The notes beneath the pieces are model-generated. The model worked only from the letters and a program-made list of their open reading frames with translations. It was not told the DNA's origin and did no database searches. Shown here one piece after another: positions 35 through 59,162 of a DNA stretch of 64,000 nucleotides. Within the stretch, counting starts at the first letter, position 1; every line of letters begins with the position of its first letter. The position numbers and the translations under genes are program-made. Origin of the DNA: Antedon bifida (lineage: Eukaryota; Echinodermata; Crinoidea; Comatulida; Antedonidae); the NCBI GenBank assembly GCA_963402885.1, contig OY727096.1, positions 17,713,820-17,777,819 of the forward strand, in the 5' to 3' direction.

Positions 35-2526
35 GTGCCATACCATACTTTCATTTTCAGACGTTGAAATTGGACCGATACTTTGGGGCATACAGCTACA
101 TCGTCCTCGCAGCTGAAGCCGGGTTGTGTGTCTTCACCCTCTGGTTTGCATTTAAAGAATTTAAACACATCAAAAAACAGAAGAAAAAATACTTCAAAAG
201 TCTTAGTAACCTGGCAGAGTTTATTACTCTAGTGTTGTCCATAACAGCATTTGTTATGTACATGTATCGCACATTTGTCGCCAAGAGTCTTATGACAGAG
301 CAAAGTGAGAATCCAACAAAGTTTTTGAATTTCCAATATGTGGGCCAGTGGGATCAGGTGAGTAATGGCTACAATGAACTATAGGGTCTGTTTCCACTGC
401 CATGACAAACAATGTCTAGACTGTAATCTTAACTGTCTAAAGCTCTGTATACACTATCACAGTGTGGGTGACAAAAAAAGTGTGATGTGCCAAAATATGG
501 TAGTGATATGCCCAAATATAGTAGTGATATGACATCATCGTGTCCATAATGGGCACATCACATTTTGTTTGATAGTGTAGACAGAGCTTAACTATAGGGT
601 CTGTTTCTTACTACCATGAAAAGTCAGTAATTTCTTGTCTGTATCCTTAACTGTCTAACTATATAATAGGGTCTGTTTCTACTACCATTACAAATTAGTT
701 TATGTGGCACTAGTACTCATGCATGCATGACTGATTTTGTTCTCCTTCTTTTGCAGATGTTCTGTTGGATGATAGGCTTAATTCTCTTCATATCAACAAT
801 CAAGTTCATGAAGCTGTTGCGTTTCAACAAACGGATGCTGCTGCTCTCTCAAACTATACAGACATGTTGGTTGGAACTGCTTCTCTTCTTCATGATGTTT
901 GCTGTTATATTTGCTTCGTATGCTTGTGCCGGATTCATGTTGTTTGGTAACAGCATGATTGATTACTACACGATGGTCACCACGTTAGAATCTTTGTTTG
1001 CTACTCTGCTTGGTAAGTATTCTCAAATTATCTCACAAATAGTACATTTTTTAAGCTCTGTCTACACTATCAAACTAGTGTGATGTGCCCAAATATGGTA
1101 GTGATATGCCCAAATATGGCAGTGATATGACATCATTATGTCCATCTGGGCTAATTTTATATGCAATTTAAAATGCCTACTTGTACCATACTATGAATAG
1201 AACTGTACAAAGATAATAATTTGGTCACTACCGAATTACAGTACTGTTATAAAAAGCAAATTACATTTACACTTTAGATGATTGTTATATAACAATATGG
1301 CATCATTTGTATGTAAGCGTAAGTATAAATAAATAAATAAATATAAATATTTTCATTAAATAAAATAATACTATTATTTTTTTAAATATTGTATTGTAAG
1401 GACTATTGGAAGATGATGTAATTGTGTTAAAATATTTGGCGTTTTTGTACATGTAGGTAACTTCAACTTTGACGACATGGTTGGTGTGAACAGAGTCCTA
1501 GGGCCAATATTTTTCTTCAGTTTCACACTGACCATCGTGTTTGTTCTTATGAACATGTTTATCACCATCATCAATGAGGCGTTCTCTGTTACCAAAGAAG
1601 AGAATGCAAAGATGAAAAATGATGTAGAAATCATCGACTTTATGGTTCGACGATTTAAGGAGACTGTGGGATTTGCTGAGAGAAGGAACTTGAAACCAAA
1701 GAGACGACATAAATATGTTGAAGGTATGGATATTATAATTCTTCCGCTGCCCTTAGAAAATGAGGCCAAGCACTTGACACTTCTCTGAATTTGGCTGCAG
1801 TCACTGCCTCTGTTCACATCCTGTACTTGGATCAACACAAGGGGTTTTATTCCTCTTTGGAATGTGCAATTTTTTTTAATTGAGTCTTAGAGAGGTGTGT
1901 GTGTAAAAGTTATAGTTGATGGGGCTAAACGAAGAAACTGATATAACTTTTCACTGATAGTGAAAACAAATACTGTATGAAAACACTGTAAATTTACCAG
2001 TAGAATTTAAACATGTTTAATTCTAAAGAAAGACAAAACACATTATACACCCATATATTTGTTTATTTACAATCCATTCACACCAAACAAAAAACGAGAG
2101 ATATATAGAATTAAATACAGTAGAACCCCTCTATTGGGACACTCCTATTCAGGGGACACGTTCCTTGGAAACAAACGTAGGGCAATAACAGCTAACCTCT
2201 ATTCATTCCCTATTAAGGTGACACTTTGTTGGGTTTTGAGATTCTACTGACGGTATTCTTAATTGAAATAATTATATTAAGCAAACAAATTTAAGAATTG
2301 CACATCTCATATCTAAAACTAGCATTTCATTTACATTATTTATACCTCTCCTATTTGTTTACTAACAACAGGAGTCGAGCCTATCCAGATTGAATGTGAT
2401 GAGATGCAGCAGAAGTTAGTGTTGATGGTTGATCAACTAAACGACTTCATTCGCAAAGAAAAGGTTGAAGAGCTAGGAGAAGATGCGGTGAAGTCTGGCC
2501 CGCGACCAATATATACAACAGACTGA
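35..2526 (+). CDS. Polycystin-family channel, C-terminal four exons (5' part outside window)
   Basis: Exons 35-357, 757-1012, 1457-1723 and 2372-2526 (stop TGA 2524-2526) join in frame with GT-AG borders. They encode the end of a PKD-type six-helix channel: a helix pair with the basic linker HIKKQKKKYF, an S4/S5 region (KFMKLLRFNKRMLLL), an S5 helix, a pore loop (LESLFATLLGNFNFDDM) split by a phase-1 intron after LLG, the family motif NRVLGP, and an S6 helix (FVLMNMFITIINEAF) followed by a charged tail. The last exon encodes a short acidic/basic coiled-coil-like end finishing PIYTTD. Polycystins are cation channels or channel-like subunits of cilia and plasma membrane. I cannot say whether this is the PKD1 orthologue, a PKD1-like or a PKD2-like member, because the diagnostic extracellular part lies upstream of the window. 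Alternative last exons exist at 5045 and 7492. Confidence 0.9.
439..589. mobile_element. MITE, family 1 (full copy)
   Basis: Inverted ends: AAGCTCTGTNTACACTATC on the left and its complement GATAGTGTAGACAGAGCTT on the right. The interior is built from GATGTGCCCAAATATGGTAGTGATATG-like repeats. It lies in a polycystin intron. Confidence 0.75.
1053..1145. mobile_element. MITE, family 1 (truncated copy)
   Basis: It begins with AAGCTCTGTCTACACTATC 40 bases after the donor of the polycystin pore exon, follows family 1 to gacatcattatgtccat, and lacks the right end. Confidence 0.7.
2118..2249. mobile_element. Short inverted-end element, family 2
   Basis: Begins CAGTAGAACCCCTCTATTGG and ends with the inverted AGATTCTACTG. 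The interior has GGGACACTCCTATTCAGGGG and GTGACACTTTGTTGGG. Related pieces lie at 4792-4910, 7276-7350, 23605-23700, 27379-27555 and 60905-61045. Confidence 0.55.
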
Positions 2527-2675
2527 TTTAGAGTAAAGATAGCCAAAGACCAATAATATACAGAACAAAATAATTAAGATATTAGTATAATTCTACTTTT
2601 TTTCATTGAACTTATAATGTACATAAGTATATGATTTGCAATCTACCCTCTTGCTAAAATTAATCTAAGATCATA

Positions 2676-2681
2676 AATAAA
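2676..2681 (+). promoter_or_regulatory. Putative polyadenylation signal, polycystin terminal exon copy 1
   Basis: AATAAA about 150 bases after the stop. The matching position in copy 2 reads AATGAA. Confidence 0.5.
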
Positions 2682-3150
2682 GGTAATGTAACTTTAATAT
2701 TAGCAGTGAATTTATAATTATGTTGATAATAATTTAATTAGCTTTTGATTGTTCAGTATTAGTAGTTTTATTGACTAAACTTCTCTTCCAAACGTGATTA
2801 AGAAGTTCATTATGTAATATTTTGTTTTGTGAAAATTATTTTTTATGTTTTTAAAAGTTTCCTTCAGGCGAAAACAAAAATCTTTTTTTTCCATCCAAGA
2901 TTAATTGTTTGCTTTCTGTTTCCTTAATTACATTCAGGGGAAAATCGCTTTTGTAATTTATATATTAAGGTAATAATATTAATAAACATTATCGTCTGTA
3001 TAATTTATGCTTTATATTTTCATGTGCTGACAGTAGCACCACCCACCTACTTTCTTGAGTAATTCCATCAACTGCTCATTTTAATTTCGAGTGTAGTTGT
3101 TGTGTGCATACGCATATAAAATATACTTATCGTACAGTATGTTTACATTT

Positions 3151-4363
3151 TTATGTGATAGAAGGAAGAAAGTGGCATTTACAGTAGTAAACTAACATAA
3201 TAAAAACGACTAACGTCGTCATTATAATAACCCTAATGTTAAACCCAATAACCTCACCGATAACCTCACCGATAACCCCAATGATAAACCCACATGTAAA
3301 TAAGAAAACATAAACCCATATATCACATCCCTGATCAAACGCCCCATCAAGACTTTGTCCATTCTTGCAATGCAGTTTGAAGACATGCATATCTTTACCA
3401 ATGCCATTATTAACTGTAACGTTAATCCGTGTACCATTGTCATTTTCCGTCAATTTGGTCTGGTTGTTGAACATAATGTTAATCCCCTTTTCTCCACATA
3501 ACAGTAATTCTTCTCGGCAAATCGAACATAGTGATTCTTTGTCAGTGACATTCATAGTATACAGAAAATTCCGTAGGGTTTGAAGTCAAATTTAATGGCA
3601 ATATTAAGTAATCCCCTGTGTTATATTCTACCGTTTTGGGCATACTTAGAAACTGTGGTCGATACATAATATTAGGTGTTGGAGTAGAACAAGTTAAGTT
3701 ATTTGGAAGAAGACCGTGTGATACTACAAAATAAAATCTATTCATTTTACGTGTTAATGGTATATAAGCTGCACTGTTAAATACATCATGTCGTGGGTTG
3801 TACACATCCTTGAATTGGTGGAATTTGTCTTCGGTGTCCATCAACCAGATTGTAACATTTACTGGAATATCTCCTACAATTACTTTGTAAGTTACATTTA
3901 CACGAGTCTCACCTTCGATGACATCAAGTTTATCAATATCACATAGTACCTTTGGATCATCAGACAGTGTATACACTTCAACAAAAATGTCTACTACACT
4001 TGACTCATGAACATCCTGTGTATTAGTTTTAGGAATCAGTTTGCAAAAGTAAAGACCTTCAAGTAATTTGTGAACTTTTTTTATAACAAGACGATAGTTA
4101 TGTGTTGCCGCAATATACTCAATATTGTATACGTCACCGAGAACAACATTTTCGTTCAGACTTATTTCCGTTTCTGAATTTGTAGTCAAGGCATCGAAAT
4201 AAAACCAAACCACGTCATACTCTTCTGTAATTTCAACTACGCAATCTAGGCCGACGTTCTCAGTCCCAACAAGTACTTGCAATGTATCTGGTGGTAGTCC
4301 AAGTGAGTAACCAAGAAATCCTAAAACTATAAAGAACAAAGGTGTATTTTCTGTGGAATACAT
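3151..4363 (-). pseudogene. Ig-type membrane receptor, copy 1, frameshifted
   Basis: The gene reads from ATG at 4363 with a signal peptide (MYSTENTPLFFIVLGFLGYS) and a V-type Ig domain (LDCVVE ... DVVWFYF ... LEGLYFCK). Two further Ig-like segments with several N-glycosylation sites follow, to about codon 273. There the frame is lost: relative to copy 2 two bases (tg) are missing near 3553, giving a stop. The remaining part, readable in another frame down to 3151, holds the third Ig-like segment and a hydrophobic membrane segment containing a 12-base tandem expansion (GEVIGEVIG). No intron is needed. It sits inside the unit between polycystin terminal exons 1 and 2, on the opposite strand. 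A functional truncated secreted product cannot be excluded. Confidence 0.75.
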
Positions 4364-4791
4364 GATAACCAGCTATGTGTAGGACAACCTAGGCCTTATA
4401 GGACAACTGTTTTGGTTTTCTTCTTTATTTACTTATCATTTAACTATCTTTTCCAAACAGTCACATGCACATAGGCCTACTATTGTTAGTATTATTTACG
4501 CAAGGGTTTTTTCTCTTTGGGATGTGCAATTGTTTTGAAATTGAGGCTTAGAGAGTTGTGTGTGTGTGTGTGTGTAAAAGTTATATGTTGATGGGGCTCA
4601 ACGAAATTTAACTTTTCACTGGCAAAAACAGATCCTGCATGAAGCTTATTTACTAGTAGAATTTAAACACGTTTAATTCTAAAGTTGTACCAATTCATCA
4701 CAAAAGACAAAACACATTATGCACCCATATATTTGTTTATTTAGAATTCATTCAAACCAAACAAAAAGTGAGAGATATATAGCATTAAATA

Positions 4792-4910
4792 CAGTAGAAC
4801 CCCTCTATTGGGACACTCCTATTCAGGGAACACGTTCCTTGGAAACAAACGTAGGGCAATAACAGCTAACCTATATTCATTCACTATTAAGGTGACACTT
4901 TGTTGGCTTC
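4792..4910. mobile_element. Short inverted-end element, family 2 (copy in duplicated unit 2)
   Basis: Same left end CAGTAGAACCCC as the copy at 2118. The right end has drifted. Confidence 0.5.
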
Positions 4911-5044
4911 CCTTACGGGTCCTACTTTTAAATTTAAATTAATCATGTTATGACAAAGTAAATTTAAGAATTGCACATCTCATATCTAAACCTAGCATTT
5001 CATTTACATTATTTATACCTTTCCTATTTGTTTACTAATAACAG

Positions 5045-5199
5045 GAGTCGAGCCAATCCAGATTGAATGTGATGAGATGCAGCAGAAGTTAGTGTTGATG
5101 GTTGATCAACTAAACGACTTCATTCGCAAAGAAAAGGTTGAAGAGCTAGGAGAAGATGCGGTGAAGTCTGGCCCGCGACCAATATATACAACAGACTGA
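5045..5199 (+). CDS. Second copy of the polycystin terminal coding exon
   Basis: This is a near-identical copy of the exon at 2372-2526. It has the same acceptor context (actaataacag before GAGTCGAGC), the same reading phase and the same stop (TGA 5197-5199). The visible change is CCA for CCT in the Pro codon after GTCGAG, which is silent. It could serve as an alternative last exon spliced from the donor at 1723. The downstream UTR is almost the same as copy 1, but the AATAAA at 2676 is AATGAA here, so it may depend on another polyadenylation signal. Whether it is used is not visible from sequence. Confidence 0.75.
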
Positions 5200-5859
5200 T
5201 TTAGAGTAAAGATAGCCAAAGACCAATAATATACAGAACAAAATAATCAAGATATTAGTATAATTCTACTTTTTTTCATTGAACTTATAATGTACATAAG
5301 TATATGATTTGCAATCTACCCTCTTGCTAAAATTAATCTAGGATCATAAATGAAGGTAATGTAACTTTAATATTAGCAGTGAATTTATAATTATGTTGAT
5401 AATAATTTAATTAGCTTTTGATTGTACAGTATTAGTAGTTTTACTGACTAAACTTCTCTTCCAAACGTGATTAAGAAGTTCATTATGTAATATTTTGTTT
5501 TGTGAAAATTATTTTTTATGTTTTAAAAATAGTTTCCTTCAGGCGAAAACAAAAATCTTTTTTTTTCCATCCAAGATTAATTGTTTGCTTTCTGTTTCCT
5601 TTATTACATTCAGGGGAAAATCGCTTTTGTAATTTATATATGTTGAGGCAACAATAAACATTAACGTCTGTATAATTATGCTTTTCATTTTCATGTGCCA
5701 TGTGCTGACAGTAGCACCACCCACCTATACTTTCTTGATCAGTTCCATCAACTGCTCATTTTATTTCGAGTGTAGTTGTTGTGTGCATATACGCATATAA
5801 AATATACTTGTCGTACAGTATGTTTACATTTTTATGTGATAGAAGGAAGAAAGTGGGAT

Positions 5860-6987
5860 TTACAGTAGTAAACTAACAAAATAAAAACGACCGGTAATCC
5901 GCCAACGATGAACCCACATATAAATGAGGTAATTCACCTCCCTGGCCCTGATCAAACGCCCCATCAAGACTATGTCCATTCTTGCAATGCAGTTTGAAGA
6001 CATGCATATCTTTACCAATGCAATTTTTAACTCTAACAATAATCCGTGTACCATTGTCATATGTCGTCAATTTGGTCTGGTTGTTGAAAACAATGAAAAT
6101 ACCATTTTCTTCAGTACCATCTACGAGTAATTGTTCTGTGCAGATCGGACATAGTGATTCTTTGTCACAGTGACAGTCAGGGGTTACATACAAATCCATA
6201 GGGTTTGAAGTCAAATTTAATGGACATTTTAAGTAATCCCCTGTGTTATATTCTACCGTTTTGGGCATATTCTGAAACTGTGGTCGATACATAATATTAG
6301 GTGTTGGAGTAGAGCAAGTTAAGTTATTTGGAAGAAGACCGTGTGATACTACAAAATAAAGTCTATTAATTTTACGTGTCAATGGTATATAAGCTGCACT
6401 GTTAAATACATCATGAGGTGGGTTGTACACATCCTTGAATTGGTGTAATTTGTCTTCGGTGTCCATCAACCAGATTGTAACATTTACTGGAATATCTCCT
6501 ACAATGACTTTGAAAGTTACATTTACACGAGTCTCACACTCGATGACATCAAGTTCATTAATATCACATAGTACCTTTGGATCGTCGGGCAGTGTATACA
6601 CTTCAACAAAAATGTCTACTACACTTGACTCATGAACATCATTTGTATCATGTGTATTAGTTTTAGGAATCAGTTTGCAAAAGTAAAGACCTTCAAGTGA
6701 TTTGTGAACTTTTTTTATAACAAGACGATAGTTATGTGTTGTCGCAATATACTCAATATTGTATACGTCACCGAGAACAACATTTTCGTTCAGACTTATT
6801 TCCGTTTCTGAATTTGTAGTCAAGGCATCGAAATAAAACCAAACCACGTCATAATCTTCTGTAATTTCAACTACGCAATCTAGGCCGACGTTCTCAGTAC
6901 TTGCAATGTATCTGGTGGTAGTTCAAGTGAGTAACCAAGAAATCCTAAAACTACGAAGAACAAAGCTGTGTTTTCTGTGGAATACAT
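5860..6987 (-). pseudogene. Ig-type membrane receptor, copy 2, broken near both ends
   Basis: This is very close to copy 1. The ATG is at 6987 and the signal peptide is intact, but ten bases present in copy 1 are missing around 6896. The deletion lies between two ACT triplets, which suggests a microhomology deletion. It shifts the frame before the first Ig cysteine. The body (from 6847 down) then reads open for 324 codons, and the spot that is frameshifted in copy 1 is intact here. The 3' end has lost part of the membrane segment: the open frame ends at 5873 with a non-hydrophobic tail, while another frame ends at 5860. Copies 1 and 2 are therefore damaged at different positions. Confidence 0.75.
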
Positions 6988-7491
6988 GACAGCGATGTGT
7001 AGGACAACCTAGGCCTAAATAGGACAACTGTTTTGGTTTTCTTCTTTATGATTTCTTCAATTTACATATCATTTAATTATCTTTTCACTCATGCACATAG
7101 GCCCACTATTGTTAGTATTATTTACTGATAATAAACAAAAACTAGACACGTTTAATTCTAGAGTTGCACCAATTAATCACAAAAGAAAGACAAAACACAT
7201 TATTCACCCACATATATTTTTTAATTTACAATCCATTCACACCAAACAAAAAAATGAGAGATATATATAATTAAATACAGTAAAACCCTTCTTTTGGGAA
7301 AATCCTATTCACAGCTATACCTCTATTCATTCCCTATTAAAGTGACACTTTGTTGGGTCATGAGAGATTGATATTCTTAATTGAAATAATTATATTATAT
7401 CAAAGCAAATTTAAGAATTGCACATCTCATATCTAACAATAGCATTTCATTTTCATTATTTATACTTTTCCTATTTGTTTACTAATAACAG

Positions 7492-7646
7492 GAGTCGAGC
7501 CTATCCAGATTGAATGTGATGAGATGCAGCAGAAGTTAGTGTTGATGGTTGATCAACTAAACGACTTCATTCGCAAAGAAAAGGTTGAAGAGCTAGGAGA
7601 AGATGCGGTGAAGTCTGGCCCACTACCAATATATACAACAGACTAA
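7492..7646 (+). CDS. Third copy of the polycystin terminal coding exon
   Basis: This third copy has an intact acceptor, phase and stop (TAA 7644-7646). It differs from copies 1 and 2 by one visible amino acid near the end (GPLPIYTTD instead of GPRPIYTTD). Similarity to the other copies stops about 20 bases past the stop codon and the following UTR is strongly diverged, while the coding part is almost unchanged. That pattern suggests selection on the coding exon. A canonical AATAAA lies at 7881-7886. Confidence 0.72.
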
Positions 7647-7880
7647 TTTAGAGTAAGATAAGGTTAACACCACGTCGTCAAACAAATTACACTTTTGCGA
7701 CACCAAAGACTATAGAAAACGCTGTTATTCAATATCTTTTCATGACTGTCTGATTTCAGAATTTGGTGTAGTTGTAGAATGCAGATTTGTTTGTAGTTAG
7801 CATATACATTTGCCCTCTTTCATTATACTGATTATCTATCTAAAATTTGGTCTTCAATCGACAAAATTCAATGAAACATA

Positions 7881-7886
7881 AATAAA
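7881..7886 (+). promoter_or_regulatory. Putative polyadenylation signal, polycystin terminal exon copy 3
   Basis: AATAAA about 235 bases after the stop at 7646. Confidence 0.45.
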
Positions 7887-8418
7887 AGTAGGTTAAATAT
7901 AAAAAAGAATTGTTTTTACATAGTATGCTTTATAATATTAAGTTATCATTTTGTTCAAGGCGATTTAAATCTATCTTGATTTTATCAGCTTTTCCGTTTG
8001 ATTCATTGTTTTCTTAACTAAGCCGCTTCTCTTCCAATCATGGTCAATAAGTTCATATGTGATGACGATGTGTTGTAAAAATATTATAAAAAATTGAAAT
8101 TGTTTATTTTGTGCATTTTGCTTTAAGTATGATGGCACAGTTAAAAGCATGGTTAATTATTAGGTCTTTAATGACAATGAATTAGTGGTGAATTATAGCG
8201 AGGCAAATTTAGCAACTGACATGGAATACTATTTTCTTCAGATACAGTATTACATTAAAATCTAGTTGTTGTTATTATTTGTTGTATTATTATTTGTATG
8301 AAAAAACCAATGATAATGAATGTCTTACTGCTTATGACATTATATACAAATAAAATTAGAGAATAATTCCTCTTTCTAAATGTAGGCCTATATGAATTTA
8401 TTTTGAATTTAAGTATAC

Positions 8419-9600
8419 TTAGGTTATTTTATATTTTATCAATTTCATCCCGGCATACATCTCAGCAACAAACCAAAATAATAAGACTACAACAAGAATT
8501 GTAAATACAATTACCAACACTTTACTAATGTTTTCTCCTTTGTCATACGTAGGCCTATCAATGCAGTGTAATTCAGTAGTATGGATATCATCACCAACAA
8601 TATTTTTAGCTTTAAACTCAATCGTTATACCATTGTCATAGTCTGTCAGTGCTTTTCTGTATGAAAAAATATAAATTCCTTTATTTCTCTTGGGAATTAA
8701 TCCAGCTTCACTGCAGTTTACTGTTTTATTGTTGCGCCGACAGAACCAAGACATGTCATTTGACCTAAGAAGTGGGTTAGACATCACATTTAACTGTATT
8801 TTTAAATGATCCCCAACGAAATATTCTATTTTATTGAGCATAAACTGAAACTGTGGTTTATAATGTATGGTCAGTTGTGGTGTTTCACAAATCAATTTAT
8901 CTGAAAGAAGGTGGTGTGATAAGCTTACTCCTAAGTGACACATGTTCATGTTGGGCGTTACCTTTAAAGTAACAGTACTCGCACCATGAAAGTTGTACAT
9001 TTTCATTACCTGGTCTTCTGTGACACTCGCCATCCATATGTCAACCCCCCGGGCTGGAATGTCACCAATATAAGCCGTGTAGTTCAACGTGACTGTTTCG
9101 CCTTCTACAGCAACAAGTTTATCAACATCGCATACTAAATGTGGATCATCAGGCAATTCATATACTTTGATATCTATTTCCACTACATTGGATGATAATG
9201 CATACGGTCCTGTATTACCAGTTTTCTCAGTCTTTTTGCAAATGTATATGCCCTCTTCAACTGGTGTCACTTCTATTATAACCAGGCGATAATTATGTGT
9301 CTGATCGTTATCGTTATCATTATACTCAAGCCTGTACATACTATTGACGTTTTCTAAAACATTTTCGTTTAAACTGATTTTAGTCTCTGATTCTTCAATC
9401 TGGACCCCATAATAACACCAAACTACGTCATAATAGTCGTCATTCGCAACTGTGCAATTTAGCTCAACGTTTTTGGTTCCAACCAGTAATTGCAATGTCT
9501 GTTGTAGGTAAGACTGGGTTTCAGCAACGAAGGAACAACTAACACCAGAAATTAGGCATAATAATATGTAGAGGTACGCTGTCTTTCCAGTGGAACGCAT
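8419..9600 (-). CDS. Intact single-exon Ig-superfamily type I membrane receptor
   Basis: An uninterrupted 393-codon frame. Residues 1-22 form a signal peptide. Domain 1 is V-type, with C49, W61 and C121 in the EEGIYIC context. Domain 2 (about 150-245) has C157, C221 and C238. Domain 3 (about 250-350) has C287, C296 and C346. Residues 361-379 form a membrane helix, followed by a 14-residue basic tail without any ITAM or ITIM tyrosine motif. Several N-x-S/T sites are visible. It is the diverged paralogue of the two broken copies at 3151 and 5860. The family is not one I recognise by name; layout resembles adhesion or immune-type receptors. The lack of introns is unusual for an Ig receptor and may reflect retro-origin. 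Ligand and signalling partner are unknown. Confidence 0.8.
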   Translation of the reverse strand: MRSTGKTAYLYILLCLISGVSCSFVAETQSYLQQTLQLLVGTKNVELNCTVANDDYYDVVWCYYGVQIEESETKISLNENVLENVNSMYRLEYNDNDNDQTHNYRLVIIEVTPVEEGIYICKKTEKTGNTGPYALSSNVVEIDIKVYELPDDPHLVCDVDKLVAVEGETVTLNYTAYIGDIPARGVDIWMASVTEDQVMKMYNFHGASTVTLKVTPNMNMCHLGVSLSHHLLSDKLICETPQLTIHYKPQFQFMLNKIEYFVGDHLKIQLNVMSNPLLRSNDMSWFCRRNNKTVNCSEAGLIPKRNKGIYIFSYRKALTDYDNGITIEFKAKNIVGDDIHTTELHCIDRPTYDKGENISKVLVIVFTILVVVLLFWFVAEMYAGMKLIKYKIT

Positions 9601-9954
9601 GATAAATACCTATGTAGTAGTATCTGTATATACTGTAGTATAGTCTTCTATACGTAGAGAGAACGACATGAAACCATATTAATATAAACTCTATAGGGTC
9701 TACGTATTGTTCTTAAATGTGCATAAAAAATATTGTTGTTATTCCAATGATATTGATAGAAACTGTTGTGCATGAACAGGCTTATTGATGCTTATTGTCG
9801 GTTTTGTTCAATCATCGATGAACAGTTAAATGTCACTATATCACGTAGGTGCGGGCTTCATTAACTTCTAACAAACAGAAAGTGTTTACTTAAATTCACA
9901 AAATGCAAACTTTTCAATACTTTTCAAAAGCTAGTGTCTAGTGTATAACATTTA

Positions 9955-10610: not shown

Positions 10611-10617
10611 TTTATGG

Positions 10618-10880: not shown

Positions 10881-10919
10881 GTAAGTTAGCCGGAGGGTAC
10901 AGCCTACCGCTTGTGCTGC

Positions 10920-11095: not shown

Positions 11096-11149
11096 GTACA
11101 CCCTGTGGTTGTGATACTGCTTTGCTGGTGGGTACACCTATTAGCCAGT

Positions 11150-11411: not shown

Positions 11412-11569
11412 TAGCAGAACTAATTTAATTAATTATTATAATCGGTTGTTACCAATAATTTGGAATCATAGAAGAATAAAGGAGGTCACTCCAAAAATTG
11501 TAATTGATTTGTTTCATTCGAGTGTGCTGCAGTACCGCAGACCCCTCCCCCCAAAAGGGAACGAACCCG

Positions 11570-17772: not shown

Positions 17773-17786
17773 CTTGAACGAGTTAC

Positions 17787-18458
17787 CTAAATTGAAAAAA
17801 GGAGACATAAATATTAAATATCTATAAACAAATAACTTATATGTTGTCAGTTGTAAAATGCTTTTAATTGATTGATGCTTATATAGGTCATTCCCCTCAA
17901 GCTGCTGAATCGTACTAACCTAGCTGGCTGGCGGCTAGGTAATTTTAATATAGCCGGGGCTGTACCTAGCCGGGCAAGCCTTGCTATACTATCTAGCATA
18001 GTGCCTACTATATAGGGCCTAGCTAGATAGATGACAGGCCCAGCCAGCGCGACAGCCGAGCACAAGGCCAGGGCCTATATACTAGATAGGCCTAGGCTAG
18101 TAGGCCTACCTACCTAGCTAGTAGGGCCTAGGCTAGCCTATTTTTTAAGAAAAAAACACAAAAGCAGAACCCTAGTTACACCCAGTACTATAATATAATT
18201 AGTGGTGAACAGTTAATTTGTATAATTTGTACGCAGGAATTTCATATAATTTATGACATTTATTATATCATGAAAAATTAAAGCAAGCCACTACTACTAA
18301 AAAGTACTAGCTAGGTAGCTGGCCTACCACCGGTGCGGAAATGACTTGTTTTTTTTGTACCCTTGTTATTAGCACGTGGTTTAACTACCAGCCAATCACA
18401 ACTTTTTAAAATGACGTAAGGCAATATAAACAAAACAAAGAGGTCCGACACACGAAAC
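17787..18458. promoter_or_regulatory. Shared intergenic promoter region, CYBC1 (-) and CIAO3 (+)
   Basis: Head-to-head genes are about 690 bases apart by coding starts. The middle (about 17910-18140) is locally GC-richer and full of CTAG and GGCC palindromes (TAGGCCTA, CTAGCTAG), unlike the AT-rich surroundings. A CYBC1 noncoding exon should also lie here. Confidence 0.5.
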
Positions 18459-49600: not shown

Positions 49601-52600
49601 CCCATTTCATATTCGTAAAGCGTATTCGTGTTGACGAATATCACCAGTCATATTCGTAACTACAAAACGAGTATAGTTTTTGATCTATTTTGCACATTTT
49701 GCATTTGAATCAGGAATGATTCATGATTATAACATAATTATAGATTTATTGAAAGTAATTTACTAAAATGCCAGGTCAATTTTGATAAATAGCAGTTTTT
49801 AAAGTCCTCACTCGCTTTGATGTTACGCTAGGCCTAGGTAGCCAAGCACCAAGCAACACGTACCTGCGCTTCGCTCAAATTTACCGCAGTCATATTTTGG
49901 ACGGCGCCCTGAATATTTCGTTGCCATGCGAAACAGATTTTTACTGGCTTACGAAAACGAATACGTGTGCGTGACGTATCCGTTTTCGTTATCGTATTCG
50001 TAAGATTGCGAAACCTCTCTATTAATAAGCCTGTATACTATTACTACTGCATTTTTGTACTGTTGGAGCTACACGTGAATTTAATAACTACAGTATAATT
50101 ACAGCTAGGTATTAAATGTACTTACCTTCATCAAAAAATAAATTTACAAATTTCGACAAGACTGAATTTATAAAAAATCTTAAGTCTCAATATAAATTGG
50201 TGCAAGACTTTGCACTTTGTGTGATGTTCTCATCAAGGATTGAAGAGCAAATGCAGTCTATTGAATGGATGGCTTTTTTGTGCTTTGTGCTAGATTCAAG
50301 TTGAGACATGCTGCACGATTTTGAGATTATAATATCATATCACAACATAAGTGGAGGCACGGTTGTTTATTAGTTATCCGCTTGGTATACCAAGCGGATA
50401 ACTCCTTGTAATTGTATGAGATCAATATTTTTTTTCTGTATTATTCTTCTTTCCTTCCTTCCTTTTTGTGAGTCGTGTTCCTCTAAAATGTGTAAACATA
50501 ACATTTCATAACTTTGACAACATATGGGCATTTATGTGAAGTTGTGCACCTCCTATTTTTGAATGACGTCATAGTTGCGCAACGTGACTTACGCGCAATT
50601 TTATGAATTTCAATGATTGATCATAGATTAAAAACCAAAAGTCATTTAGTATTGACACTTTGACAAAATTTAAGTCATATCAGGGGCAAACTTTCTACGG
50701 ATTTAAAATGGCATGTTTCACAAGAAGTTACGCGTGCACGCGCATTTAAAATTTCAAAATGCGCAAAATTAATTTCTAATCAACTTTTTACGCGTTTCTT
50801 GTCATTTTGAGCATGTCAAAAATTCCCACGGGCGCGCAATTTTTTACGCGCGCGGTGCGCACGTAGCGTTAAAAACATATTTTTTTCTCTTGAATTATAT
50901 TTTTCAAGCCTTTCCTAGTAATTTTGAAAACAATTTAGACCTTTTTCTGTTTAAATAACGCCATACGAACACGTTGAATTAGACAATTTGTGCGCGTTTT
51001 TTATGAAAAAGCTTAAAAAATCGTCAAAATTATGTCTTTTTTTAAACAGTCATAGTTTCTAAAGTAAACCGTTAACCGTTTATTTTTATTACAAAATCTA
51101 GAAGTTGATGAGTTGTAGATATCGGATCATGCATCAATAAGGCTAAAAAAACATTGTGACGTCATCGTATGGCCACACGAATGTAAAATATAGGATTTTT
51201 GTCTCTTTCGTTATTGCTCATCACATTCAATGGAGCGCATCACGCTTATCTGTATTCCTTTTTCTGCTACATTTATATATTGTGTAGGTCAATCAACTTT
51301 CTTTAGCATGAGATAAAAATATTTTAATTTTTATGACGTCATCATGCCTAAAAATTTTAATTACGTGGGTCATTAATTTCATCTTTACAGTAAATTTTAA
51401 TCTGTAATAGCTCGTAAGAATAAAATGTGATAATCACGATTAAAACGTTTTCTGGAAGCTATTGGATTGTAGATACGAATTCATGTAAACATTTTGCCAA
51501 TCGGATGTTGTGACGTCATCATATGGCCAGTTGAATAAAAAAAGTTGTATTTTCATATTTTGCGTAATAGTTCATCACATTTAAAAGGGTGCGCATCTAT
51601 ATTTTACGTATTCAAATTTCTTCTACACGTTAATATGTTGTTCCTGAGATAATTTCCTTCTGAAATTGCTATCTAAGTGTTTCATTTTGATACCGTCGCC
51701 ATGTTAAAAATTGGAATAAATGGCGGGTCCCGTAATTTCACCTATTCTACACTGTATGTAATATGTATACAGCTTATACTGTTTGCATGTATATACTATA
51801 TGACACAAAATTGACAGAATTCAGCACTAACAGCATATCATATTCTTCAGTTCTTGTCATAATGCCATAAACTTTATCTGTGTGCAATATTCCAACGTAT
51901 GACGTGCACGTGGCGTTTGTCGTGGTGCGGATAACTAACTCGTCAAAGTGACGAGTTTCATGTCTAGTTTCATTTTCAATTGTTTGAAAGTCTTTGGTAG
52001 TTTATTTGTTTATTTAGCATTCCATCCGGACTTATATACTGATCCAATTTTGTTCTGCATTTATAATTAGAATACTTTCTTGCAATTTAATGTAACTTTT
52101 ATTTTTGTAAATTATTATTTTTTAAATTGTATGCTCTTTTATTGGATGTACCTCCTGTATTTCAAAAATTAATTTGCTATATTATGATTTTAATATTGTC
52201 TATTTCACAGAATTACCTTAAAACAAAATCATTTGGCATAGAATTTAAATTAAGTTTATAAGATAGGTTATTGACTTCATCATTTTTTTTTTATTAGTAT
52301 CTTGCTGTTTTGATGTTTATTAGAAATACTTTTCTAGCAGCAGCCTGAGAGGTTCAGGTCAGGGTTGAGGCTAGAGACAATCAGCCTACTTAGACATTTG
52401 AGTGTTTACATTCAATTTGGGTTAATGTATTGGTGATGACAAATAGATAGACCCCAAGGATCCTGTTGGGCTTTCTGTAGTACTGTTTATTAAAACATAT
52501 GTGGACAATCTATTTGCATTGATGAATATCCACAGGCACATTGATGTTATAGCTGTGGAATAAATAGCATCACGCAATAAATAGATCAGCTATGATTAAT

Positions 52601-55600
52601 TAAAGAGAATGTACTGTCATGATGATCTACCAAAATTACTTGAGAATGTTAAATAGTCTATTATTAGTTATCCGCTTGGTATACCAAGCGGATAACTCCT
52701 TGTAATTGTATGAGATCAATATTTTTTTTCTGTATTATTCTTCTTTCCTTCCTTCCTTTTTGTGAGTCGTGTTCCTCTAAAATGTGTAAACATAACATTT
52801 CATAACTTTGACAACATATGGGCATTTACGTGAAGTTGTGCACCTCCTATTTTTGAATGACGTCATAGTTGCGCAACGTGACTTATGCGCAATTTTATGA
52901 ATTTCAATGATTGATCATAGATTAAAAACCAAAAGTCATTTAGTATTGACACTTTGACAAAATTTAAGTCATATCAGGGGCAAACTTTCTACGGATTAAA
53001 AATGGCATGTTTGACAAGAAGTTACGCGCGCACGCGCATTTAAAATTTCAAAATGCGCAAAATTAATTTCTAATCAACTTTTTACGCGTTTCTTGTCATT
53101 TTGAGCATGTCAAAAATTCCCACGGGCGCGCAATTTTTTATGCGCGCGGTGCGCACATAGCGTTAAAAACATATTTTTTTCTCTTGAATTATATTTTTCA
53201 AGCCTTTCCCAGTGATTTTGAAAACAATTTAGACCTTTTCCAGTTTAAATAACGCCATACGAACACGTTGAATTAGACAATTCGTGCGCGTTTTTTATGA
53301 AAAAGCTTAAAAAATCGTCAAAATTATGTCTTTTTTTAAACAGTCATAGTTTCTAAAGTAAACCGTTAACCGTTTATTTTTATTACAAAATCTAGAAGTT
53401 GATGAGTTGTAGATATCGGATCATGCATCAATAAGGCTAAAAAAACATTGTGACGTCATCGTATGGCCACACGAATGTAAAATATAGGATTTTTGTCTCT
53501 TTCGTTATTGCTCATCACATTCAATGGAGCGCATCGCGCTTATCTGTATTCCTTTTTCTCCTACATTTATATATTGTGTAGGTCAATCAACTTTCTTTAG
53601 CATGAGATAAAAATATTTTAATTTTTATGACGTCATCATGCCTAAAAATTTTAATTACGTGGGTCATTAATTTCATCTTTACAGTAAATTTTAATCTGTA
53701 ATAGCTCGTAAGAATAAAATGTGATAATCACGATTAAAACGTTTTCTGGAAGCTATTGGATTGTAGATACGAATTCATGTAAACATTTTGCCAATCGGAT
53801 GTTGTGACGTCATCATATGGCCAGTTGAATAAAAAAAGTCGTATTTTGATATTTTGCGTAATAGTTCATCACATTTAAAAGGGTGCGCATCTATATTTTA
53901 CGTATTCAAATTTCTTCTACACGTTAATATGTTGTTCCTGAGATAATTTCCTTCTGAAATTGCTATCTAAGTGTTTCATTTTGATACCGTCGCCATGTTA
54001 AAAATTGGAATAAATGGCGGGTCCCGTAATTTCACCTATTCTACACTGTATGTAATATGTATACAGCTTATACTGTTTGCATGTATATACTATATGACAC
54101 AAAATTCAGCACTAACAGCATGTCATATTCTTCAGTTCTTGTCATAATGCCATAATCTTTATCTGTGTGCAATATTCCAACGTATGACGTGCACGTGGCG
54201 TTTGTCGTGGTGCGGATAACTAACTCGTCAAAGTGATGAGTTTCATGTCTAGTTTTAATAAAGACACTGTTTTTTATAGTTATTAGCCTGAACAAATATA
54301 AAATCATTATTTCTAAAAAATAACAATAAAATATAACAGTACATCATTCTGTATTTCTACACAGAGTATTTTAAAATAACATACTATACTACAGTATATA
54401 TTGAATAACAGAACCTACTGTAAAGTATACAGTAATGATACAGTATACAGTAGTTTTAACTGTGTACAAGCTGATATACAAATTGTTGTTGACATTATAA
54501 AGTTCCACCACAAGTGACAACTGTGTTTATATAAATTGGAATTAGGGACAAAAACACCATATTTTTCTCCTTAAATTGCAATGAACTAAAATAGTCAAAA
54601 CAGTATAGTAAAGTGTTACCAAGGCACAGCAATTTAAAACCGATATAAAAAGTGACTAGTTATTCACCATCATCAGTCATCACTACATAATAATATTCAT
54701 ATCAATTGCAAGTGATGAGAATGATGGAACTGGTATAACCTTTGACCTTTATTCTATTCATCATCTAATAAGGTAACCCATTAGAATCTCATTTAATTTG
54801 TTATTCTCTTGTTTAAAAATAACATTAAAAGAAGTTTACTAGGTTAAAGATGATGATGATGATCACTCAGCGAAAGGCGACTGTTTTAGACTATACCAAA
54901 ACAACAAGTCCAACTAAACCATAAAGAATTTACTAAACCAAATGAAATAGTGTACTGTATAGGAATTATCTACTGTTGGCCTGTTTCTGCTGCTGCCAGT
55001 ATAGCCTACTAACTATATAGTTTCAATCTCTCTCAATCAAACAATTCATTGCTTATTCATTGTTTTATATAGTTTTTAAACCGTACATGATGATATCGAA
55101 ATTACAGACAATTTAGAAACCTGCCGATAATGTCCATATATTAATATTATTATATCCTGATATTCAATATAATTGCATGCCTACTTTAATTTGCCTACAG
55201 AGAAGTTTTAAAAATCATTATACTGCCCTCTGTTATTTAAAAATGTATTGTTCTCCAAAAACATGAAAAATGAAGATTAATAAAATCAGACTTTTTTGAA
55301 TAGGCTTTCACATAAAATGACAAAATACATTTTTTTTTGCTTCAAATTACAGTTTTTTTCAGGTAAATACATTTTTTTTCGATCCAATTTCTTGTCAAAA
55401 GTGGATAACTATTATATGACATAAAAATGAAATATTCAACAAATAATATTTTAAAATAATTTTTTTCTGTGAGACAATCTTTAAGGATTTAATTTTTCAG
55501 ACAATGCTAGTAATAATAATAACTACCTCAGAATCTATCCCGTAACTATCTAATTTTTGCAATGAAAGATGAGGGCTATTAATTTATAGTATAGCTATCA

Positions 55601-58600
55601 ATTACAGAAAACGTATTGTACTACAGTCAATAACATCACTCAGTAAATTGATATTGTAGCAATTTAGTGTAAATTAATACAATAAATGATCAATAACTTT
55701 ACAGAAAAATATCACTTGCAATGTTTATGTAGCGTGCATTCAACTAACATTTATTTGAGCGATTAAGGCAGACTATTATTTCATTGGATGCTTCTCACGC
55801 ATCCATAAAAATATTCAGAAAAAACATTTTGAAATTAAATTGTCTATTTTGGATGAAAAATAGCCTATGACTACAGTTTATATATTTAATTTGAGCATAA
55901 TTAGCCTAGGCATATGTTTATTTTTTTTTTATTTCAGTTGAAATTCGTAGTATTATTTATCGGAAATCGTTTATAAATCAAGTTAAAAAATGTTTATTTG
56001 ATGAATATATAGAATAATGTACGTTTTATGTTTTTCTTTTTAATTCCACCTGTATTTTTTGTAATTTATATTTGTAAAGGGGGTTAAACTCGATTAGAGA
56101 AATCTACTTTTTAACCTCCTATTGCCATGCTGTAATTTGTTTCTTTTTTTTTTTTTTAATATATATTTATATATAATATATATATTTTTCTTTTTTTGGC
56201 AATAAAAGTTGAAGTATGTAATACAGGAAAGCCTGACTCAATTCTAATTCTAAAAATGTAACATACAGCATATTTCGCGAATATATTGGGTTATAACATA
56301 GAGGACACTATTTACAATTTTAATTTAATGTCTCGCGCATTGGCCACTGAAAAAGTTGGCAGGTATATAAAAATAGTAGGGATGTCCTCTGAATAGAGGT
56401 TGGCTTTTACATATTTGAACATATAAGATTCAAGATTCAAGATTCAAGAAATTTTATTTGTCCATAAAAATGGAAATTCACTTTGCTTGGTAGATTAAAA
56501 CAACAATATTGCAACAATTTAAAACGTGCAGAACTATAACAGATTAAAAATACAAGATAAAAAGTTAAAAATGTAAAACTATTTAAAAATTGCATTATCG
56601 TCTTACATTAGAATTAAAAATATGAATGCTATTTACAACGAAGGATTTTCTAGTTCTACAAAGATTTGTTCTTGGAGGTCGTAGCCTAATACCTGATCTA
56701 TTTAAGTTATAACAGTAATGTAACGGATGAGTGGGGTCTTTCATAATATTGTTTACTTTTTTAAAAATACTCTTTTCATAGATAAATGAACAAGGCGTTA
56801 GACCAGCTTTAATAATACGTTGTGCAATTTTACGTGGTCTCTCAATATTTTTCTTATCATTTTCAGTAAAGTTACCATAAAAACATCCAATGCTAAAAGA
56901 TAAAATACTTTGAATAATACTTTGATAAAATAGAATTAAAATTTGCTTGAGTTTTCTGAGAAAGTAGAGCCTTTGAGATGCCTTCTTGGAAATCATGAGA
57001 GAGTTTGACTCCCAGTTTAATTTGTTGTCAATTATAGTACCAAATAAATATAAAGTATTGCCTCTTATTTCGTTTCAAAGAAAAGTGTCCTATTTAATAG
57101 TAGGGATCATGTCCCCTGAAAAATAACAAATAAACATAGAGTAGATAATTTTACATAGATTGTGGTTGCCAACAGGAACGAATACTTGAAGGTTAATTTT
57201 TATTCCAAAAGGAAACAATCATTAGCATATTTATGAGAGTGAAGCTATTTCATGACACACATTTTAGGATGTTTACACTAGTTTAAAATTAAATTTTATC
57301 ATTAGCTAAATGTCAAATCTTTCAGAGCTTCTAACCCAAAGAGTTGTATATGATCACTAAATATGTCTTTTGTATGCACAAGATCTGTATATACAGTAGT
57401 TGTTAGGGTGCTTTAGATTTTGTTATTTGTACGTATGGATGAATTCAGAAATAAATGAAATTGATTTACATTTATTATTATAATTTTATTTATTTATTCT
57501 GTCATTATACTGAATGACACTTTCAGTGCGCAAAGCATCGATTTCCAAAGTTCAGTAGAGAACATTAACAATATAATCAAAATAATAAAGTAATTTACAT
57601 CAGTACATATACATATTACAAAAAAGTATCACCAAAACCTGCAGTAGAACACCTCTGTGTCCCTTTAAAACTTAGGTTGGCTGTAGTGTTACCCATAACA
57701 TTGCACCTTGTACGTTTCAGTAGAAGTAAATGATAGTAATGTATCTTGAACTAAATAGAGGTTGGGTGCAATGTAGTGTACATGTTGCTCTTTTTTCGCT
57801 TCAGAAGAAAGTATACCCTTAATAGGGGTTTTTGTATGGAGCATCTGCCATTTTTGCTGTCATGAAAAACTTTATTCTCCTGCTAGAACAGGCCCTTAAA
57901 GTGCATGAAACCTGGACTGTGGAATTCCCTGAAGATATGACAGTTTGATTATTACTGTACTTTGACCTACAGTAAGCTTTGATTTTATCATCAAATCCAA
58001 TGTCATAGTTAATGTACGTAATTACCGTCTAGTGTACTATGTACTTTAAATAGGGAAGGGACCATAAAAAAAATATTTAAACTATTGTATACTTAAACCT
58101 ACTGTATGTAATGTTATCAGTATATAAAATGTCAACCACTGTATACTAAATGGCGTACATGTACCAAATAAGTATTATTGATAATGAACTATGTATCACA
58201 AGGTTGCTGGTTAGAGTAGTCAAGTTCAACTGCACTTAAGTACTGTACTATTATGTAGTACTACAGTATAGTACTAGTAGTTAGTAGTAGTAATAGTATG
58301 ATCAGCCTAAACAGGACAGTCATACAAAAATGAATACTATTTTATTTTAAGATGATCCCTTGGTTGTTTGAGTACTTTATAATTAATGAATACTTAAATC
58401 TTCTAATTACCATCAATAATCACATTTACAATAGTTGATTAGAATAAAGAATGGTTTAAAACGAAGGAAGGATTAAGGTAGGAAAGAAAATGGAAGGAAT
58501 GAGTTAGTGTCAGAGTACAAAAATGAACAATTCTTCGAAAGAAAACACTTTTTTTAATAACTTTTGAACATTTTTGTTAACTTGTGTAATGCCCTGTGTA

Positions 58601-59162
58601 TTGATGGTAGAGAATAATATGTAATGGTAGAGAATAATGTAATGTTGAATTGTTATGATGTCATTGGTAGTAGTACTTCGAGGTCAATAGTAGTACTATA
58701 GTTGATGATCGTCAATTGGGACTTGATTAATTTAATAATGATTATCATCATCATGATTATTACTCTATATGATTTTTGTTAATATCTACACTGTATTTGT
58801 TGATATAAAGTTTGCGGTACACTACATATATTAGTTCAGAAAAGAACTGTTTCTCAATGTTTCGATCAATATGCTTTGATCGTTCTCAGGAGTGTGCATA
58901 TTGATCGAAAAAATTGAGAAACTTGACAGTTCTTTTCAGAACTAATATACGTGGTGTAACGCAAACTTTATATCAACACTTGATTTCGCCATGCAAACCT
59001 TCAAACAATATACACTGTATTTGTAACCCAGACTCTTTGGTGTACTTACTTTTTCCATGTTCCTCCTTTAAAGACCTCTCCAAATGACCCAACGTCTGAC
59101 CTTGTTGGTGACATTGGGTCATGTACCGTGTCCATCTCTATGGTGTTATGATCGTCACACAT
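25687..59162 (-). CDS. RHBDF: Inactive rhomboid protein (iRhom, RHBDF1/2 pro-orthologue)
   Basis: Minus-strand exons: 59162-59050, 44735-44679, 38564-38362, 34943-34872, 34061-33865, 33348-33199, 31438-31261, 30592-30412, 30182-29892, 29454-29343, 28840-28775, 28589-28428, 28239-28151, 27737-27674, 27323-27159, 26815-26715, 26573-26420 and 26127-25687. All phases agree; the product is 931 residues. A long cytosolic N-terminus carries the [11 protein letters not shown] and KRQSVAKM motifs. The first helix (about 482-508) follows EDHRPYFTYW. The Cys-rich iRhom homology domain (about 509-715) contains [27 protein letters not shown] and GRPCCIG. The rhomboid core has [18 protein letters not shown] and [11 protein letters not shown]. 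The catalytic Ser motif reads GPAG (787-790), so this is a pseudoprotease. iRhoms escort ADAM17 and control EGF-ligand turnover. A second first exon lies at 46768-46695. Confidence 0.95.
26205..26312. repeat. Minisatellite, ~20-base unit (iRhom last intron)
   Basis: Units of CCACTCAAGCATAGCAAA type, same family as 25385-25485, on either side of the final coding exon. Confidence 0.7.
26940..27071. mobile_element. MITE, family 1 (iRhom intron)
   Basis: Ends ACCTTGTCTACACTATAA and TAGATAGTGTAGACAGAGG, with the same interior as the other copies. Confidence 0.7.
27379..27555. mobile_element. Short element, family 2 (iRhom intron)
   Basis: Begins acagtataacccctcatttg and ends with an inverted tagaagttctattgta stretch, so the ends still pair. 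Interior gggacacccctactaaggaa and agggaacact are family features. Confidence 0.45.
28995..29300 (+). mobile_element. tRNA-headed SINE in an iRhom intron
   Basis: The head has a tRNA-Leu/Ser-like A box (TGGCCGAGCGGATAAGA) and a weak B box. A conserved-looking body follows (TGCGCACTTTAAAGAAC, GAGGTCGCCCAG), then an ATAAATAAAA-type tail near 29280. Confidence 0.6.
31439..33198. other. iRhom intron without recognised features
   Basis: AT-rich intron sequence with many oligo-A/T runs. I see no exon, RNA gene or complete element. Confidence 0.5.
36831..36914. mobile_element. 84-base foldback element, family 2
   Basis: Left end CAGTAGAACTCCT and right end AGGGGTTCTACTG are inverted. It is a very short internal-deletion form inside an iRhom intron. 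Confidence 0.6.
37990..38300. repeat. Tandem repeat, ~140-base unit rich in CTGCAGTA
   Basis: At least two full units share ACTGCAGTAACGTTACCAAA, cagaagatataccgca and aagactgtagt. Single CTGCAGTAA motifs also scatter near 24720-24960. Confidence 0.65.
40174..41604 (-). mobile_element. Helentron-like element, copy B (second subfamily)
   Basis: Left hairpin at 41602-41573 (GGTTATCC arms, one bulged base), right hairpin at 40204-40182 (GAACTCGTCA arms), subterminal GCGGATAACC at 40215-40206, end TCTAG at 40174. It is directly followed head to tail by copy C. It carries the same internal blocks as copy A at lower identity. Confidence 0.75.
41605..42837 (-). mobile_element. Helentron-like element, copy C (second subfamily)
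   Basis: Same ends as B; its 5' half is almost identical to B but a middle part differs and is about 200 bases shorter. B and C abut with only one or two T residues between them and together sit inside copy A. Confidence 0.75.
42899..44678. other. iRhom intron, mostly featureless
   Basis: AT-rich up to about 44300. The last part (44320-44665) is a G/A-rich degenerate array of GGTAGCAG-like motifs, for example gggggtaggacacaacagg. Minus-strand frames there are repeat artefacts. Confidence 0.5.
44320..44665. repeat. Degenerate G/A-rich low-complexity array
   Basis: Irregular repeats around AGCAGTAGTAGGGA, CTGGGGGTAGGA and GGTAGCAGAGACACTGG, next to the 57-base iRhom exon donor. Confidence 0.55.
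44679..44735 (-). CDS. RHBDF: Symmetric 57-base iRhom exon
   Basis: Encodes the Ser/Thr-rich stretch [18 protein letters not shown]. Phase 2 at both ends, so skipping it keeps the frame. It lies between inverted copies of the Helentron-like element. Confidence 0.75.
45785..45885 (+). mobile_element. tRNA-derived SINE
   Basis: A box TGGTCTAGCGGTATGA and B box GAGTTCGAGTCCC sit at tRNA-like spacing, followed by an AT-rich tail. Stems do not all pair, so it is a SINE head and not a functional tRNA. It lies in the intron between 44735 and 46695. Confidence 0.6.
46695..46768 (-). CDS. RHBDF: Alternative first coding exon of iRhom (short isoform)
   Basis: ATG at 46768 opens [20 protein letters not shown], ending in phase 2 at a strong GTAAGT donor. 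That phase joins exactly to exon 44735-44679 (GT+A gives Val), so the isoform is 918 residues. No acceptor is obvious just upstream, which suggests a transcription start here. Read as alternative to the exon at 59050; both can feed the same downstream exon. Confidence 0.7.
47515..48051. repeat. Minisatellite, ~67-71 base unit (left block)
   Basis: Seven to eight units containing AAATAAGTGGGTTTAGTGG, TATGCTATACTCCAGAATTGG and AAGTTCACTAGTACATTTAA. The minus-strand open frame with repeating [12 protein letters not shown] is an artefact of stop-free units. Confidence 0.85.
48056..48681. mobile_element. TTAA-flanked MITE inserted in a minisatellite
   Basis: Ends AGACCCCTTCCCTGC and, inverted, GTAGGGAAGGGGGCT. 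TTAA lies at 48052-48055 and 48682-48685. The interior is GC-richer (about 48210-48310) with no frame. Confidence 0.8.
48682..48985. repeat. Minisatellite, ~67-71 base unit (right block)
   Basis: Four or so units identical in type to the left block, continuing after the MITE. Confidence 0.85.
49527..50019. mobile_element. TA-flanked MITE, Tc1/mariner type
   Basis: Inverted ends of about 49 bases with two mismatches (GGGAGGTTTCGCAA ... ACGGATACGTCAC), flanked by TA on both sides. 493 bases, no transposase. Confidence 0.8.
50371..51967 (+). mobile_element. Helentron-like element, copy D
   Basis: A complete copy, 1,597 bases: palindrome 50372-50403, four perfect TGACGTCA octamers (50564, 51157, 51334, 51511), right hairpin and CTAG end at 51964-51967. 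Nearly identical to A and E, so recently active. It lies in the large 5' intron of iRhom, antisense to the gene. Confidence 0.8.
52665..54252 (+). mobile_element. Helentron-like element, copy E
   Basis: A complete copy, about 1,588 bases, in direct orientation 700 bases after D. It has the same palindrome and CTAG end, and differs by scattered substitutions and an ~8-base deletion near 54100. A short minus-strand frame at its right end is not a gene. Confidence 0.8.
54253..56426. other. iRhom 5' intron, no element recognised
   Basis: AT-rich, with short simple repeats (GATGATGAT near 54850, oligo-T runs). No exon seen. Confidence 0.5.
56427..57052 (-). mobile_element. 5'-truncated CR1/L2-like LINE, end of the reverse transcriptase region
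   Basis: The minus strand reads from about 57052 [48 protein letters not shown] and LRTRKSF-like sequence, stopping at 56595. These are the thumb and post-RT motifs of CR1/L2-clade non-LTR retrotransposons. The 3' end is a short array of TTGAATC repeats (56428-56449), as expected for this clade. It is truncated and not functional. Confidence 0.8.
57053..58798. other. iRhom 5' intron, no element recognised
   Basis: AT-rich with scattered short CAGTA motifs. I see no exon. Confidence 0.45.
58799..58977. mobile_element. Foldback element, near-perfect hairpin
   Basis: The left arm GTTGATATAAAGTTTGCG continues through TATATTAGTTC and AGAAAAGAACTG to GATCAATATGC. The right arm is its complement with few mismatches, leaving a ~20-base loop. 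179 bases, about 70 bases from the donor of the distal iRhom exon. Confidence 0.75.

Follow-up and report, generated by a model that had tools for sequence, protein, structure and literature searches.

We describe a region of the feather star Antedon bifida genome that is very probably the single, unduplicated counterpart of human 16p13.3 and 17q25, its vertebrate copies having arisen through the 2R duplications, with NARF as the CIAO3 ohnolog that kept its place next to CYBC1. The window, by which we mean the whole stretch of 64,000 nucleotides analyzed, covers positions 17,713,820 to 17,777,819 of contig C9 in a genome of 315.6 Mb and 27 contigs. The region provides an unduplicated echinoderm outgroup for a well-studied vertebrate region (the alpha-globin flank and RHBDF1/2). 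It also lets gene position bear on how NARF arose, making that origin directly testable. The original prediction was that the window looks like this block before it was duplicated in vertebrates. That reading holds insofar as one chromosome carries genes from both human regions (seven of seven markers, together with the local genes); it goes too far in equating a living chromosome with an ancestor, and its argument from PKD1 is not supported.

The predicted presence of RHBDF (iRhom), CIAO3, and CYBC1 was borne out by family scores and traced exons, and the traced exons of all three genes fall inside 23 kb. The window contains the following features.

1-1785, + strand: last channel exons of a polycystin-1-type gene (open frames 1-381, 670-1080, and 1417-1785)
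3154-9609, - strand: three tandem Ig-like genes, between the polycystin gene and CYBC1 and outside the human block
about 16030-17772, - strand: CYBC1 (EROS) orthologue, start codon at 17772
17773-18458: CYBC1-CIAO3 spacer, a candidate shared promoter
18459-22480, + strand: CIAO3 (Nar1/IOP1) orthologue, 476 aa in a hand-built model of 10 coding exons (18459-18524, 18800-18892, 19052-19207, 19360-19489, 19930-20061, 20504-20752, 21063-21135, 21628-21759, 21995-22152, and 22239-22480)
25690-38587, - strand: RHBDF, exons traced by eye, the last exon ending at 25690
59055-59162, - strand: candidate 5′ coding exon of RHBDF, a short frame with an ATG at 59162 and a GTAAGT donor

All nine introns of the CIAO3 model are GT-AG, and its joined exons match the Pfam families Fe_hyd_lg_C (PF02906, 238 bits) and the corresponding small subunit (PF02256, 40.5 bits). 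Genome-wide, PF02906 identified a single locus, the CIAO3 gene described here, among the best candidates scored. The available text of a 2026 preprint (PMC12991071) describes eight proposed Fe-S cysteines for the Nar1 family, a conserved C-terminal Trp, and a Lys within the C-terminal tripeptide in 45% of 631 proteins. The feather star protein has eight such cysteines, C24, C70, C73, C76, C191, C247, C394, and C398 by our own residue assignment, and ends in VIKW, with the terminal Trp preceded by Lys. NARF is presented in the same text as a paralog in certain vertebrates that bears two additional conserved N-terminal cysteines, and its role is called largely unknown (PMC12991071). That extra pair is absent here, where C24 is the sole cysteine before the first cluster motif. 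The gene was assigned to the CIAO3 type because of its cysteines, its terminal Trp and Lys, and the missing NARF pair. It shares with the family the eight cysteines and the C-terminal Trp with preceding Lys, both of which NARF keeps according to the portion of PMC12991071 available; it differs from NARF in lacking the added cysteines, yet it occupies the position that NARF has in human. None of the 47 PDB chains matched by this protein was named NARF or CIAO3; the matches were hydrogenases and four at chance level.

The joined exons of CYBC1 score 109 bits against Cybc1_Eros (PF15169), a family whose genome-wide matches fall at this locus only, among the best candidates scored. The model is without one internal family stretch of roughly 30-36 residues, which was not found on reading the three minus-strand frames. 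CYBC1 (-) and CIAO3 (+) lie head to head with start codons 686 bp apart, so that the gene models and this distance confirm the head-to-head pair that had been proposed. Within the spacer are consensus matches to a CCAAT box (18392), an E-box (CACGTG, 18373), and a CRE-like element (TGACGT, 18412). The ratio of observed to expected CpG is 0.94-1.83 in 200-base steps over 18300-19000, around the CIAO3 start, versus 0.64 window-wide, a rise as for an unmethylated promoter. The distance, the three consensus matches, and the CpG content together suggest a promoter that CYBC1 and CIAO3 may share. The CpG ratio is raised toward CIAO3 only, and the CYBC1 side carries no promoter sign, which argues mildly against a common promoter. 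Human CYBC1 and NARF are presumably head to head as well. The order HEXD, CYBC1, NARF, FOXK2 is given for human in the available part of PMC10334611; with the feather star pair, it upholds the claim that CYBC1-CIAO3 mirrors the human neighbors CYBC1 and NARF.

CIAO3 and RHBDF are arranged tail to tail with 3.2 kb between them, and the joined exons of RHBDF score 83 bits against the Pfam Rhomboid family (PF01694). Against PDB chains RHBDF scores 510.4 bits with iRhom2 and 502.3 bits with iRhom1 (chains of differing length and unspecified species), and such near-equal values are consistent with a gene predating the iRhom1/iRhom2 split. The motif of active rhomboids is GxSG. The corresponding feather star exon reads VGPAGAQFG, and the aligned iRhom1 and iRhom2 likewise read VGPAG, the catalytic serine being lost. 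The iRhom1-2 N-terminal family (PF12595) scores 24.3 bits on the joined exons, with a cut-off of 25. The sole candidate for this family in the genome search was RHBDF here (17.7 bits, E 0.42, below the cut-off), which makes a single copy likely, if weakly tested. The proposal that these genes are single-copy therefore stands for CIAO3 and CYBC1 (one locus each, among the best candidates scored), and its backing for RHBDF is the weaker, sub-cut-off PF12595 match.

Rightward of RHBDF (-) come MPG (+) and NPRL3 (-), an order matching that of human 16p13.3; we take the human strands of RHBDF1, MPG, and NPRL3 to agree with it. For human, the available text of PMC9916800 gives POLR3K, RHBDF1, MPG, NPRL3, and alpha-globin. 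The nameable genes of the right flank are listed below.

Right flank, + strand: MPG, 188 bits
Right flank, - strand: NPRL3, 38 bits for NPR3 (cut-off 27.5) and 146.8 bits for an NPRL3 chain
83566-84255 in window coordinates, to the right: noggin, one 230-codon frame, 143.7 bits
Right flank: NTHL1-type gene, HhH-GPD 68.7 bits
Right flank: PRPSAP, 248 bits to PRPSAP2, 228 to PRPSAP1, and 135 to PRPS1
Right flank: AIMP2-like gene, 83.5 bits
Right flank: BPTF-like gene with DDT and PHD domains

The partial exons of the NTHL1-type gene score 93.6 bits as endonuclease III, below the model cut-off of 211.7. A further gene, at about 78-82 kb when counted from the window start, matched no Pfam family. 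The traced RHBDF exons and noggin are ~45 kb apart, and the ORF listing includes a frame resembling a Gypsy retrotransposon, flanked by repeats, at 102646-106656 (window coordinates, to the right). Farther left, 10-kb pieces contain a cyclin, a mitochondrial carrier, and an aminotransferase of class III, along with a TELO2 match 169 kb upstream of the window; of these four, TELO2 alone entered the marker test. The TELO2 match is a weak one (27.6 bits, E 8e-4), and the exons read at that site matched no Pfam family. No Rfam family at gathering score and no tRNA were found in the window, and the globin-type MRE motif has no exact match in the 264 kb of window and flanks.

Of the 10 nameable genes in these 264 kb, seven map, by their human counterparts, to 16p13.3 or 17q25, with PRPSAP counted via PRPSAP1. 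The 10 are CYBC1, CIAO3, RHBDF, MPG, NPRL3, noggin, NTHL1, PRPSAP, AIMP2, and BPTF; two polycystins, three Ig-like genes, a DUF4062/NPHP3-like TPR gene, the unnamed gene, and transposons were left out. When the band was widened, post hoc, to 17q22-q25, the count rose to nine of 10 with noggin and BPTF, and AIMP2 stayed outside. For these counts we take the human positions to be 17q22 for noggin, 17q24 for BPTF, 7p22 for AIMP2, 17p for PRPSAP2, and 17q25 for PRPSAP1. The evidence beyond the window edge (MPG, NPRL3, the NTHL1-type gene, and the weak TELO2 match) strengthens the reading as a counterpart of the human regions. Points against it are AIMP2 and the NPHP3-like gene, which are foreign to the human blocks, and the closer match of PRPSAP to PRPSAP2.

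Linkage at the scale of the chromosome was examined with seven Pfam markers fixed before searching: TSC2, TELO2, PIGQ, and TBL3 for 16p13.3 and TBCD, RPTOR, and SRP68 for 17q25. They were picked by their human positions after the 100-kb flanks had been seen; TSC2, TELO2, PIGQ, and TBL3 are assumed to lie in 16p13.3 and RPTOR and SRP68 in 17q25. TBCD is placed in human 17q25.3 in the available text of PMC10334611. In the genome profile search, all listed matches of all seven markers are on C9 (TSC2 at 15.2 Mb, TELO2 at 17.5, PIGQ at 21.2, TBL3 at 33.2, TBCD at 20.3, RPTOR at 22.9, and SRP68 at 34.1). Because C9 (~34 Mb) makes up 10.8% of the genome, this outcome has p = 1.7e-7 under a null that takes the C9 share of genome length only, without negative-control markers. 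As far as these markers go, human 16p13.3 and 17q25 trace back to the linkage group that C9 represents.

The polycystin at the left edge was set apart from this evidence. By its open frames it starts ~37 kb left of the window, and it is the second of two tandem polycystin-1-type genes at about -77000 to 1785 in window coordinates. Each of the two has a PKD/REJ-like frame of >1,000 codons and channel exons (by eye, with Pfam run on the second copy). The joined exons of the second copy match PKD_channel (156 bits), Polycystin_dom (73.5 bits), and PLAT (48.6 bits), and the PKD, REJ, and F5/8C families were also found; homology suggests an 11-TM architecture. PLAT, 11-TM, REJ, and PKD domains are common to other polycystin-1-type genes. 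The WSC domain scores 15.4 bits, with a cut-off of 27.8. PDB comparison gave 213.5 bits for PKD2L1, 207.9 for polycystin-1, about 206 for PKD2, and 119.4 for PKD1L3, the sole PKD1L protein among the matches listed; the polycystin-1 match is strongest over PLAT and the first portion of the TM region. The identification of this gene, a member of a tandem lineage, as PKD1 was not confirmed. The call is not warranted, and the polycystin has no place among the evidence for 16p13.3. PKD1 was set aside as a 16p13.3 marker, the tandem polycystins being without established PKD1 orthology.

These observations suggest the following history. The chromosome carrying the window very probably descends, without genome duplication, from a deuterostome linkage group of which human 16p13.3 and 17q25 are two of the vertebrate copies. 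In vertebrates the block would have been copied by the 2R duplications, after which the 16p copy may have retained RHBDF1-MPG-NPRL3 and CIAO3, and the 17q copy RHBDF2 and the CYBC1-NARF pair. NARF would then be the CIAO3 ohnolog that remained beside CYBC1, and the 16p copy of CYBC1 would have been lost. A short promoter region in common may have held the CYBC1-CIAO3 pair together as the surrounding gene order was mostly scrambled. CYBC1 adjoins CIAO3 in the feather star and NARF in human, so NARF is likely a vertebrate ohnolog of CIAO3; should the CYBC1-CIAO3 pair prove ancestral, NARF would be the duplicate of CIAO3 that remained at the former location, on 17q. We lean mildly toward a further claim, that a head-to-head pair of CYBC1 and a Nar1-family gene is ancestral in deuterostomes, is >500 million years old, and was linked to RHBDF-MPG-NPRL3; after 2R the pair would have persisted on 17q only, where the Nar1 copy became NARF, with CIAO3 on 16p without CYBC1. 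If true, NARF would occupy the ancestral site and CIAO3 would carry on the ancestral function, with a promoter shared by CYBC1 and the Nar1-family gene as a candidate constraint.

An alternative is that only the chromosome-scale linkage is old and that the packing of CYBC1/CIAO3/RHBDF here and of CYBC1/NARF in human arose by separate reshuffling within a conserved chromosome. CIAO3 and RHBDF1 are presumably far apart in human 16p13.3; the CIAO3-RHBDF adjacency is thus not common to both genomes, which counts for reshuffling. The available part of PMC11175523 reports gene order heavily scrambled within conserved chromosomes, for example between two hemichordates that have no apparent shared microsynteny, so most of the gene order in this region could be derived. 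We nonetheless consider reshuffling improbable, since CYBC1 adjoins a Nar1-family gene in both feather star and human, the order RHBDF-MPG-NPRL3 is the same, and RHBDF1 and MPG are adjacent in amphioxus: two separate agreements within a 34-Mb chromosome.

NARF might instead predate vertebrates, as an early animal duplicate of CIAO3, tandem or segmental, that stayed by CYBC1 and was lost in the feather star lineage. The feather star protein is 61.2% identical to CIAO3 and 47.1% to NARF, and CIAO3 and NARF are 48.5% identical to each other (human sequences). Taken as a clock, these identities would put NARF outside; rate asymmetry after duplication explains the same figures, which fit either a fast-evolving vertebrate NARF or one of greater age. 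Two further points make an older NARF decidedly doubtful: the available text of PMC12991071 reports NARF in some animals, certain vertebrates, and the place next to CYBC1 that NARF has in human is taken in the feather star by the CIAO3-type gene itself. Chance clustering or misidentified paralogues, which the over-reading of the polycystin as PKD1 and the lack of a negative control in the marker test might favor, are hardly credible given the strong family scores, the single genome loci, and the seven of seven preset markers on C9.

Much of the broader setting of the unduplicated counterpart is already published. The vertebrate RHBDF1 and RHBDF2 regions (16p13.3 on the alpha-globin side and 17q25 on the cytoglobin/AANAT side) have RHBDF, MPG, and NPRL3 in the same order; relative to these, the feather star has one region, with CYBC1-CIAO3 next to RHBDF. 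The paralogy of the two vertebrate regions is attributed to a regional, probably 2R, duplication in the available text of PMC4259306. In amphioxus, scaffold 17 of chordate linkage group 15 has RHBDF1 and MPG adjacent with consecutive gene numbers (Putnam 2008, in the available part of PMC2975663), and thus resembles the feather star in having RHBDF beside MPG in an invertebrate. The part of the amphioxus list available in PMC2975663 names RHBDF1, MPG, ARHGAP17, and LCMT and is without CYBC1, CIAO3, and NPRL3 (c16orf35 there). With its occurrence in an echinoderm, the RHBDF-MPG linkage would date to the deuterostome ancestor. Twenty-four deuterostome linkage groups match 24 bilaterian ones (PMC11175523, available part), and vertebrate copies of ancestral linkage groups arose by duplication (PMC7269912, available part). 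Both sources, as far as available, concern conservation of whole chromosomes, as for C9; they differ from the present case in being chromosome-scale, whereas here local order is at issue. Given the published linkage groups, amphioxus RHBDF1-MPG, and the RHBDF1/2 paralogy, the chromosome-scale claim is not new. New to us is the detail that CYBC1 has CIAO3 as its neighbor in the feather star and NARF as its neighbor in human. No paper on the origin of the CYBC1-CIAO3/NARF pair was found among the open-literature matches listed, supplements excluded.

Of the three tandem Ig-like genes, the one scanned (8422-9609) scores 28.7 bits for I-set. Two of the three are 90-98% alike in aligned DNA blocks, a recent duplication, and direct repeats in these genes are spaced about 2.4-2.7 kb apart. 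Repeats cover 7,351 of the 15,630 bases at 38630-54259. Among them is a repeat of ~1.4-1.5 kb in three copies that are 99% alike (38635-40180, 50424-51969, and 52718-54106; two direct and one inverted); lying beside the traced RHBDF exons, it looks like a young mobile element. A fragment at 56598-57074 (-) resembles, by eye, a non-LTR reverse transcriptase.

Contig C27 is the mitochondrial genome, at 15,844 bp (15,792 in the Florometra counterpart, PMC7748595). Taken by itself, it marks the organism securely as an echinoderm and, through the position of ND4L, its length, and its richness in T, as a likely crinoid. By eye, COX1, COX2, ATP6, COX3, ND3, ND4, ND4L, ND5, and CYTB were named on one strand and ND6, ND1, and ND2 on the opposite strand. 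ND4L lies between ND4 and ND5; the title of a 2006 study reportedly refers to a unique nad4L rearrangement within crinoids. Cytochrome b reads with mitochondrial code 9 (AAA as N, AGA/AGG as S), and its AAA codons fall on Asn of the conserved motifs TNLLSAIPY and GSNNP. The coding bases are 49.9% T and 10.8% C (6,756 bases in seven frames), and the published mitochondrion of the crinoid Florometra has 44.9% T and 12% C (PMC7748595).
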